A stretch of DNA of 64,000 nucleotides from an uncultured bacterium (GTDB lineage: Bacteria; Planctomycetota; UBA8108; UBA1146), in NCBI GenBank assembly GCA_913056395.1, contig CAJXMG010000002.1, forward strand, positions 81,353 through 145,352, read 5' to 3'. Of the stretch, positions 4,023 to 7,670 are shown piece by piece (position 1 is the stretch's first letter; each line of letters starts with the position of its first letter). Under the pieces are notes generated by a model that ran no database searches, had not been told where the DNA came from, and saw only the letters and a program-made list of their open reading frames with translations. A program made the position numbers and the translations under genes.

Positions 4023-4604
4023 TCAGTCGACGTCAGCGATGACTGAAGCGTGCAGAGCCCAGCGGGTTCCAGAGTGATGGTCCACCACTGCCTGCCAGTC
4101 CTTGCGTAACAGGTCCATGTCAAACTTGTTGCCGAGGTAGGCCGCCATGCCCCGGCGATACAGAATCTCTGCGACCGCTGGCCCTTCCGGGGCAACGGAC
4201 AGCGCACTGTTGTATTCCTCCACCGCTGCCAACGGATCCTTGCGATCATGAAGATCGATGGCTCGGGCAACATGGATCTCTGCCAGCAACTCTGTCGTTG
4301 GCATCCAGCCGGTCCATTCCCTCAATAGTCTGCGGCCGTCACTGCTGAAGAAGCGAATACGGGGTGAAAAGGGGATCTTGGTCATCGCAGCGACTGTTTT
4401 GAAATCCGGGTGACGCTCCGTCACATTGATTTTCAAGGGTGAGACGAGCGCAGTCGCAGCTTGTTGAAAGACGGGGTCTGGATACGTCACGGTATCCAAT
4501 CTCTTGCAGCCCAGTCAGCCGGGGGCATGGAGAATCACCATCACGGGACGGTGATCCTGCTGGGCATTGGCACATGCCGATTCAAAATCCGGATACCACT
4601 CCAT
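4023..4604 (-). CDS. Selenoprotein: thioredoxin-fold UxxC protein with TPR-like tail
   Basis: The frame starts at ATG 4604 with AGGAG six nt upstream and reads 29 codons (MEWYPDFESACANAQQDHRP...VMVILHAPG). It then meets UGA at 4517-4515 and continues LGCKRLDTVTYPDPVF... to a second UGA at 4025-4023. Reading the first UGA as Sec gives HAPG-U-LGCKRLD, the active-site context of thioredoxin-like proteins, with Sec replacing the first Cys of CxxC. Homology-like sequence runs without a break on both sides, and a hairpin sits at the right distance (separate entry). The 193-residue product has a thioredoxin domain (about 1-110) and a short TPR-like helical tail (about 115-175). No signal peptide is evident, so it is probably cytosolic. 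It begins 33 nt after the kinase gene on the same strand, probably in one operon. A nonsense mutation is the alternative reading. Confidence 0.82.
4478..4499 (-). promoter_or_regulatory. Putative bacterial SECIS element (thioredoxin-TPR selenoprotein)
   Basis: Reading the minus strand, 15 nt after the UGA an 8-bp stem forms: UUGGAUAC pairs with GUAUCCAG (one U-G pair, otherwise Watson-Crick), closing a CGUGAC loop. The loop starts 24 nt past the UGA and has G as its second base. Known bacterial SECIS elements have a short stem with the apical loop about 16-37 nt after UGA and a G in the first two loop positions. The hairpin also encodes protein, as expected in bacteria. Confidence 0.72.
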
Positions 4605-4637: not shown

Positions 4638-7600
4638 TTATTGGGAAGTCAGTTCAACGAGTCTGTTTTGAGCAGTCTTCACTGAGGGAATTTCTCTATC
4701 CGCCTCACCCCAGGCATTCAGGAACTTCTGATACCACTCGATGCTTCCTTGCGAGTCACCGGCCCGATCCAGAGCCTGCGCCAACCGGAAAGTTGAATCG
4801 ATATTGATGGCATTCGAGGTGAAAAAGTTACCTTGGGGCCGATTGGAGATCCTCCACTGGCGAGTCACCATTTCAGATCTTCCCAGTTTCTCGTAAAGTG
4901 CCGCTGCCACGCGAGATTCCACACCCATGTCCCGGTTGATGACAGGGGTTTTCTGGAGCTTCTCGAGGCGAGCGAGTGCTTCTTCCAATTTGCCCTCAGC
5001 CGTCAATATGAAAATGCGTAACATCTCGATGCGAGCAGAAGCAAAAGGAGCCACTCGCCCCTGAACCTCTTTTTCCATCTCGACAAGGATTTGCCGGGAG
5101 GTGTCCACATTTCCAGATTCAACCAGGAAGTATCCCAACCAGATTTGATCAAGCCCCTGGGAATCCCGGCGATCCCTGAGCAGATTCAGTGTGTCCAATC
5201 CCCCTGCGGTGTCACCACTCAAACACTGGGCACTGCCTTCCGCGAGGATCATAGGAATGTGGTTGATATCCCCCACTCCCGTCTGCCCCCGGTTTCCCTG
5301 AACATTCTCCCAAGCCGTTTCGTAAATCCCCGTCGCTTCCGTGAATTTCCCCTGCCGGATTCTGCGCTTATGATTTGACAGGTAGGCCCCGGTCAATCGG
5401 AAACCAGCGGTTCCCTCGATGGCAAGAGACTCTGCCTCGAGCATTTTTTCTTCCTCGCCCATCTCACAATAGCAGGTGGCCACCAGATCCATGTCTCCAT
5501 AACCATCGCCATCTTCAAGATTGTGGAGGTCAAGAATTTCCTGAAAACGCCCCTCAGCATTCCACAAGATCGATCGGGCATTCTGGATCGATTCATCTCC
5601 GGGAGCATCGACTTCCAGTTTGTCGAGATACGCGTGGGCTTCGGGGATTCTGTTGTTGCCGATGAATCCTTCGATGATGTGGTAGAGCACGATGCGGTAG
5701 GAAGGTGCGATTTCCACTGCTTTCAGAAACAGTTCGTGGGCTCTTTGCAGATCCTTGACGACCGCTGCGTGGGTATAGCACTCACCCAACAGGTAGTAAG
5801 CGGTCGCATTGTCTGTTCCCTCGGCTACCAGTTCCTCCAAGAGTTTGATCGCCTGATAGGGATATCGAACGTTCTGCAGATGATCCAATTGGGCGCGGTA
5901 AATCTTTTGATCGTCAGCGGAGAGCCGATTGATATTGGCAAATCCTTCTTCGAGGGCCTGGATAGCTTCTTTCTTGCCGCCATTTTTCCGGATTGCGATG
6001 GCAAGCTCCATACTGGCTCTGGCAAAGGTTGGATCGATGGTCAGGGCTCTGCGGAAACAATCGATCGCTTCTCTAAAGTTCAGGGCCATCACCGCAGTGT
6101 TTCCGGAGATGTACCAATTCAACGCCTCTGAAGATTCGGTCAATTGGGTCTTGGCCTCAAAAGAACCGGCGCGAGTGGATTTACCCAAACCATCCTTGAT
6201 CAGATTGGCGATCTCTGTCGCCACGGTGAACAGCTCCGTTGCCTGTTCAACTTTGACGTTTCCTGATACCAGATTGGTTCCGTCAGAGATGCGGGTGACT
6301 TCGGTGGAGACGAGATAGTTGGTCCCCAACTTGCTGACAGAACCGGTAACCATGATTCCGGCTCCGGCCTTTGTGGCGATCTGGTCCGCATTGGCAAGAT
6401 TGAAGGAGGAGTTGGTATCACCGGTGACGGACTGCCTGGCAAAGGAAACCCTTTGTTGCGAAACCACTTTGAGGGCATCTCCACTCGAAAGTTCACTGGC
6501 AATCAGGCTCACGAGGATCGGTCCGAGATTTTCTTTGTCTGAGGGATCGGTGATGTTCGAAAAGCCGACGACCGCCACTGCAGACTGCCCCACAGAGTCA
6601 GCAGAGTTGATCACCGGTTGGAGCTCTCTCTTCACGGGTTCCGGTTCCTGCTGCATGAAGATCAGAAACCAGGCAAGGGCCACAACAGCCATCACCAGAA
6701 CCGGTACCATCCAACCCGCTTTGCTTCGAGGTGCACGAATTTCGTGAATCCCCGATTCGAGTATATCCGGCTTGGCGAGAACCCCCGATTCGATTTCCGA
6801 TCGAAGTTGATCGAGATCATTTCTAAGATCCAACGCGGTCTGATAACGCCGATCCGGAGATTTCTCCAGGCAACGGGAGATAATCCTGCCCAGATACCGG
6901 GGCAAGCTGGGTTTCAGCTCATGGGGTGGTGGTGGATCTTCCCTGAGCACTGAGGTGATAGTCGAAATCGGCGTATCGCCCTTGAAAGGACGGACTCCTG
7001 TGGCCAGTTCATAGAGGATGACTCCCAAACTGAAAATGTCCGTTCGACCATCCACGGGCTTACCCTCTGCCTGTTCCGGCGACATGTAGGCGGGCGTGCC
7101 CAGTATCTGCCCCTCTTGAGTGACACCGACTGCGTAATCGAGAGTCATGTCATCGTCAGCCAGATCATTGCGAGAAGTGGGTCCTGTCACCTTGGCCAAA
7201 CCAAAATCGAGAACCTTGACCTGCCCGTCGTCACAGATCATGACATTGTCAGGCTTGAGGTCCCTGTGAACGATTCCGGTTTTGTGTGCCAGAGACAGGG
7301 CCTCTGCCATCGGCAATGCGAGATCGAGGATTCGGGTCAACTCAAGAGAGCCCTGTGCGATGTGCCAGGAAAGGGTTTTCCCATTGACCAACTCCATGGA
7401 AAGAACCCGGTGCTGGTCGAACTCTTCAATTGCATAGATGGTGACGATGGCAGTGTGATCCAATTGAGCGACGGTTTTTGCTTCACTCTCAAATCGTGAG
7501 AGTCGCTTTTCGTCCCGTGCAAACTCCTCAGGCAAAACCTTCAGAGCGACCTGGCGATCGAGTCGGGTATCGAGAGCACGGTAGACAACGCCCATCCCTC

Positions 7601-7670
7601 CCCGTCCGATCAACGCTTCGATACGGTATGGACCAATCTGGTCAGGGATGGCGTCATTGTTTTCAGGCAA
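4638..7670 (-). CDS. Transmembrane Ser/Thr protein kinase with FlgO/TolB-like and TPR domains
   Basis: 1010 aa. The N-terminal Hanks-type kinase domain (about 15-290) has the glycine loop GRGGMGVVY (22-30), the ATP lysine in VALK (K44), the catalytic HRDLKPDN and the DFGLA magnesium loop, so it should be active. One membrane segment (WMVPVLVMAVVALAWFLIFM, about 317-336) follows. An extracytoplasmic domain starting AVAVVGFSNI resembles the FlgO/TolB/CsgG-like fold seen after kinases of this architecture, and TPR-like helical repeats run from about 530 to the end. The combination is common in Planctomycetota and Acidobacteriota signalling kinases. The thioredoxin-fold selenoprotein gene starts 33 nt downstream, suggesting cotranscription. 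The ligand or substrate cannot be told from sequence. Confidence 0.93.
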   Translation of the reverse strand: MPENNDAIPDQIGPYRIEALIGRGGMGVVYRALDTRLDRQVALKVLPEEFARDEKRLSRFESEAKTVAQLDHTAIVTIYAIEEFDQHRVLSMELVNGKTLSWHIAQGSLELTRILDLALPMAEALSLAHKTGIVHRDLKPDNVMICDDGQVKVLDFGLAKVTGPTSRNDLADDDMTLDYAVGVTQEGQILGTPAYMSPEQAEGKPVDGRTDIFSLGVILYELATGVRPFKGDTPISTITSVLREDPPPPHELKPSLPRYLGRIISRCLEKSPDRRYQTALDLRNDLDQLRSEIESGVLAKPDILESGIHEIRAPRSKAGWMVPVLVMAVVALAWFLIFMQQEPEPVKRELQPVINSADSVGQSAVAVVGFSNITDPSDKENLGPILVSLIASELSSGDALKVVSQQRVSFARQSVTGDTNSSFNLANADQIATKAGAGIMVTGSVSKLGTNYLVSTEVTRISDGTNLVSGNVKVEQATELFTVATEIANLIKDGLGKSTRAGSFEAKTQLTESSEALNWYISGNTAVMALNFREAIDCFRRALTIDPTFARASMELAIAIRKNGGKKEAIQALEEGFANINRLSADDQKIYRAQLDHLQNVRYPYQAIKLLEELVAEGTDNATAYYLLGECYTHAAVVKDLQRAHELFLKAVEIAPSYRIVLYHIIEGFIGNNRIPEAHAYLDKLEVDAPGDESIQNARSILWNAEGRFQEILDLHNLEDGDGYGDMDLVATCYCEMGEEEKMLEAESLAIEGTAGFRLTGAYLSNHKRRIRQGKFTEATGIYETAWENVQGNRGQTGVGDINHIPMILAEGSAQCLSGDTAGGLDTLNLLRDRRDSQGLDQIWLGYFLVESGNVDTSRQILVEMEKEVQGRVAPFASARIEMLRIFILTAEGKLEEALARLEKLQKTPVINRDMGVESRVAAALYEKLGRSEMVTRQWRISNRPQGNFFTSNAINIDSTFRLAQALDRAGDSQGSIEWYQKFLNAWGEADREIPSVKTAQNRLVELTSQ

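Follow-up and report, generated by a model that had tools for sequence, protein, structure and literature searches.

A predicted UxxC thioredoxin selenoprotein with a TPR-like tail, encoded almost throughout its planctomycete family with an in-frame UGA

A minus-strand gene within a 64,000-nucleotide stretch of DNA from an uncultured planctomycete (the window, meaning that whole stretch) very probably encodes a genuine selenoprotein that is decoded by means of SelB and a bSECIS hairpin. We infer both Sec incorporation and the activity of its product, a predicted thioredoxin-fold selenol/thiol-disulfide oxidoreductase with a TPR-like tail that probably binds a partner or client. The UxxC thioredoxin-like kind of selenoprotein is known, and the nearly Sec-only family of Thioredoxin_7-TPR proteins to which this gene belongs appears to be undescribed.

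The open reading frame comprises 193 codons and a stop, and contains a single in-frame UGA that occupies the U position of a thioredoxin UxxC motif. A sequence-only reading of this DNA had described that UGA (at codon 30, in the context HAPG-U-LGC-K), coding sequence on both of its sides, a good ribosome site before the ATG, the choice of an internal start and the loss of the active site by standard gene callers, and the use of UGA as the true stop of the same gene, and all of these features were recovered in the present analysis (Table 1). The ratio pN/pS is 0.42 before the UGA and 0.28-0.32 after it, and the frame obtained with translation table 11 is 158 residues long, begins at TTG 4499, and is devoid of the active site.

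Table 1. Positions in the window of the predicted selenoprotein gene and its features
Feature	Position	Strand	Description or basis
Predicted selenoprotein gene, complete	4604-4023	minus	Thioredoxin_7 domain and TPR-like tail; 193 aa including one Sec
Shine-Dalgarno-like site, AGGAG	4615-4611	minus	6 nt 5' of the ATG at 4604; from sequence
In-frame UGA, codon 30 (U of ULGC)	4517-4515	minus	TGA at this column in 59/60 distinct homologues
Cys33, putative resolving Cys of the UxxC site	4506-4508	minus	Invariant in family alignment A1
bSECIS-like hairpin, UUGGAUAC-CGUGAC-GUAUCCAG	4499-4478, loop 4491-4486	minus	RNAalifold, pair counts, synonymous null, synonymous constraint
Thioredoxin_7 domain, residues 2-86	4347-4601	minus	PF13899, E 1.4e-12
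Invariant Pro81, cis-Pro position	4364-4362	minus	Alignment and AlphaFold model
TPR-like helical tail, residues 103-191, five helices	4032-4298	minus	AlphaFold; profile matches to TPR, BamD and CpoB chains
Terminal stop UGA	4025-4023	minus	Own stop of the selenoprotein gene

A family search that covered 198 relatives first and then 392 Planctomycetota genomes, using the family alignment, recovered 60 distinct homologous sequences, which are spread over many Planctomycetota families, include members from closed genomes, and display identities to the window protein as low as about 21%. The column of the active-site UGA is occupied by TGA in all but one of them, the exception carrying TGC, and this codon is constant while the terminal stop differs among members (TGA, TAA or TAG). 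The residues that are invariant in the family are W3, U/C30, C33, T40, P81, G99 and A183. No homologues were found in plasmid and phage collections.

These observations bear directly on the reading in which the UGA truly ends translation, arose by sequencing error or marks a pseudogene, and a functional protein is produced from TTG 4499. Standard gene finding does return the corresponding 158-residue frame; against this, the segment that precedes the UGA displays purifying selection, and the frame that omits the UGA-containing part loses both the active-site motif and the match to Thioredoxin_7. A sequencing error, which the sequence-only reading had named as a possible refutation, is excluded by the recurrence of TGA in the same column across the family, including a near-identical MAG (L047) and the closed genomes, and the reading as a whole retains almost no probability. 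The Gly codon immediately 5' of the UGA (4520-4518) is GGC in nearly all members (pair identity 0.72, versus 0.28 expected), suggesting that the sequence context on the 5' side of this UGA is under selection. One relative (L041/L118, genome G159) contains an extra TAA about 33 codons 3' of the UGA, and is a pseudogene or an (assembly) error.

The genes needed for Sec incorporation, for which the sequence-only reading had proposed a search, are all present in the host genome, which is that of a marine planctomycete (2.77 Mb, 95% complete). Both selA (529 bits) and selB (365 bits) score over their cut-offs, a tRNA-Sec with anticodon UCA (tca) was found by both Rfam and ARAGORN, and selD (348 bits) has an in-frame UGA of its own, at ASCAG-U-AAK, consistent with the UxxK motif that is given for Sec-containing SelD in a published inventory of selenoproteins (PMC13188914). 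The tRNA-Sec, the Sec-containing selD and selA are clustered (C5:62885-65603 of genome G000), and selB is located on a different contig. Across the genomes searched, selA scores over its cut-off in 48 of the 51 that carry the UGA form, versus 190 of the 341 others (Fisher P = 1e-8). In all three exceptions selB exceeds its cut-off, and tRNA-Sec is present in no fewer than two of them, so that the missing full selA matches probably reflect fragmented assemblies.

The sole member with Cys at the UGA column, a type of homologue that the sequence-only reading had also proposed to look for, is L079 from genome G377, a full-length protein with the motif C-SGC. No selA match is listed for that genome, neither selB nor tRNA-Sec reaches its cut-off there, and the L079 gene is without the hairpin described below. 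In the tree, L079 sits on a long branch and is poorly placed, in a manner compatible with both Sec-to-Cys and Cys-to-Sec change.

A frame that is read through UGA is likewise shared by the reading in which that codon is decoded as Trp, Gly or Cys via suppression or a variant code. Within the window, however, UGA ends 21 of the 36 long non-overlapping open reading frames, that of the selenoprotein gene among them, and the code is therefore not globally reassigned; in addition, (i) the host genome possesses the full Sec machinery, (ii) the occurrence of the UGA form follows that of selA, and a conserved hairpin accompanies this form, and (iii) the residue found at the site in G377 is Cys, not Trp or Gly. 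Decoding as one of these other amino acids is thus highly improbable, and selenocysteine is the reading that we adopt.

The hairpin associated with the predicted Sec codon, UUGGAUAC-CGUGAC-GUAUCCAG, is situated just 3' of the UGA and consists of 8 base pairs (one U.G pair counted in) that close a small apical loop, CGUGAC, in which the G (GU) of SelB/bSECIS-type hairpins is present. The stem begins 15 nt after the UGA and the loop 23 nt after it; the 8-bp stem and loop sequence of the sequence-only reading are therefore retained, and the start that it gave, 24 nt, is corrected, since that value fits the loop. Among the 59 UGA-containing members, the exact register of the hairpin (7-8 bp, with columns 21-26 after the UGA paired with columns 33-38) is kept in 56, against a mean of 3.6 and a maximum of 9 in 300 trials of a synonymous-codon null, and the same stem was recovered unaided by RNAalifold. 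Pairing is preserved by 20 both-side changes (counted as cells), and covariation exceeds that of all 500 shuffles, a comparison weakened by the relatedness of the sequences, and that of every slid version of the hairpin, in which relatedness is preserved. In one member (L031) the stem has been largely rewritten, as GGCCAA/UUGGCC, with its register kept. The pooled synonymous difference is 0.24 in the hairpin codons versus about 0.70 before and after them.

Considered singly, the window hairpin stands out only slightly (z -0.32; with synonymous resampling, P about 0.03-0.05), and the single-sequence fold was dropped as proof of a SECIS; the assignment is secure because of the family evidence. 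A covariance model of the element found no other gene with the same SECIS in the host genome (E 7e-15 for the selenoprotein gene, 0.4 for the next match). The constancy of its register, despite great divergence of the protein, makes the hairpin a good model of SelB requirements in Planctomycetota.

The decoding scheme that we propose is drawn from the known SelB/bSECIS mechanism of E. coli. When the ribosome reaches UGA30, SelB-GTP with Sec-tRNA(UCA) would bind the hairpin that spans 15-37 nt downstream, and the hairpin-bound SelB would lead to insertion of Sec at that codon, while the terminal UGA, which is without such a hairpin, would end translation.

The resulting protein is predicted to contain two parts. 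When queried with Cys at the position of the UGA, its first domain matches Thioredoxin_7 (PF13899) with 48 bits versus a cut-off of 27, and its solved relatives are the C-terminal domains of DsbD (DsbD-gamma). An AlphaFold model computed on the family alignment (mean pLDDT 94.9) displays a thioredoxin fold at about residues 1-100, followed by five helices at 103-191. The window protein by itself does not reach the Pfam cut-off for a TPR (TPR_2, 17.7 bits versus 27); a family-level profile, however, matches CpoB, BamD and consensus TPR chains, the model displays paired helices, and TPR_16 or TPR_6 is matched in some family members. The tail is accordingly termed 'TPR-like', and the TPR tail put forward in the sequence-only reading is upheld by these profile matches and by the confident helical model. 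The same reading had described the protein as cytosolic, which is the probable location of the window copy (it has no signal peptide) and does not extend to relatives in family f47 with hydrophobic N-termini, so that location varies within the family.

On this architecture, Sec30 would attack and Cys33 would resolve in a selenol-disulfide exchange, Pro81 may shape the active site, and the C-terminal helices probably serve to bind a partner or client protein; we likewise infer the redox direction, the partner and the substrate. A different role has been considered for the same Sec-containing protein, namely that it is mainly a chaperone or holdase (a 'chaperedoxin' of the CnoX/YbbN type) and does not serve general disulfide reduction. 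YbbN has an SxxC site and acts as a holdase. The architecture of thioredoxin plus TPR is common to both proteins, and the top Foldseek match is E. coli YbbN (3qou), but the TM-score to that structure is 0.38 with an rmsd of 11.7, indicating that the domains are arranged differently, and the invariance of U30/C33 and of Pro81 points to catalysis. We therefore consider a mainly chaperone role unlikely, and favor the oxidoreductase assignment.

Comparison with described systems places the protein near several groups of selenoproteins. UxxC thioredoxin-like selenoproteins are a well-known kind, as the sequence-only reading had indicated (PMC2398784), and the closest of them are the thiol:disulfide interchange selenoproteins (PF13098/cd02953; 'Trx-like 2' of the GOS data; PMC13188914, PMC2398784), which have in common with the window protein a DsbD-gamma-like fold and Sec as the first residue of the active site. 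The window protein matches the DsbD C-terminal domain (NF001419) with E 2.6e-9, and PF13098 weakly; it differs in being a stand-alone thioredoxin with a TPR-like tail and no membrane domain, and attains only 36.2 bits against the cut-off of 330 for full-length DsbD (NF001419). Some published sequences of that group may belong to the family. The Trx7/PDZ selenoprotein NF041199 likewise has a Thioredoxin_7 domain, but is described as having Sec in second place (CxxU) and a PDZ domain (PMC13188914), and the window protein scores 17.5 bits against its cut-off of 300. The VPGUxxT selenoproteins (NF041382/NF041383) are thioredoxin-like with a UGA near the active site, and differ in that motif, in their length (about 290-350 aa) and in score (27.9 versus a cut-off of 275). 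CnoX/YbbN resembles the window protein in its thioredoxin domain followed by TPR helices, and differs in its length (about 280 aa) and domain arrangement; it is not known to contain Sec. The GOS_C selenoprotein NF045500 yielded no profile match to the window protein at E <= 1.

Four members were compared with NCBIfam models and their cut-offs, and every score fell far short; in a scan of all 23 members, each family named was either generic or more distant. Among the 119 selenoprotein families inventoried in 2026 (PMC13188914) there is no thioredoxin-TPR family, and the literature, mostly the freely readable part, yielded neither a TPR-bearing thioredoxin selenoprotein nor, for Planctomycetota or anammox bacteria, the family described here.

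Gene order reveals neither a conserved operon partner nor a functional partner: synteny (with IleRS and other genes) is confined to the window's own family, and elsewhere the neighbors vary, those with annotation being mostly housekeeping genes. The gene upstream in the window (4638-7670), between the selenoprotein gene and that for IleRS, encodes a TPR-containing serine/threonine kinase (Pkinase, 5.8e-48). At three other loci (L132, L134 and L137) IleRS adjoins the selenoprotein gene with no such kinase between them.

Numerous Cys homologues are known for many selenoprotein families. The present family is almost entirely Sec-containing, with its one Cys member in a genome where the machinery is missing, and therefore offers a natural test of Sec retention at a UxxC site. 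Wherever gene calling admits UGA solely as a terminator, every copy is deprived of its active site, and the protein is consequently probably misannotated across Planctomycetota. We advance only tentatively the broader proposal that a phylum-old and nearly Sec-only thioredoxin-TPR 'seleno-chaperedoxin' helps to keep Sec decoding in Planctomycetota, that Cys replaces Sec only upon loss of the whole Sec system, and that in f47 the gene has been multiplied into several exported paralogues.

Genomes of f47, which are possibly those of anammox bacteria, contain two to four paralogues each, some of them in tandem (L043, L064, L101, L082), and many of these have hydrophobic, signal-peptide-like N-termini. 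Finally, a number of planctomycete Thioredoxin_7 proteins that are longer or otherwise different (L110, L114, L115, L112 and L111), most of which fall outside the selenoprotein-TPR clade, also have TGA, in frame, as the first codon of the active-site motif (DWUGYC, DWUGWC, ADWUPSC, GHGUGAC), and they are probably further undescribed selenoproteins.
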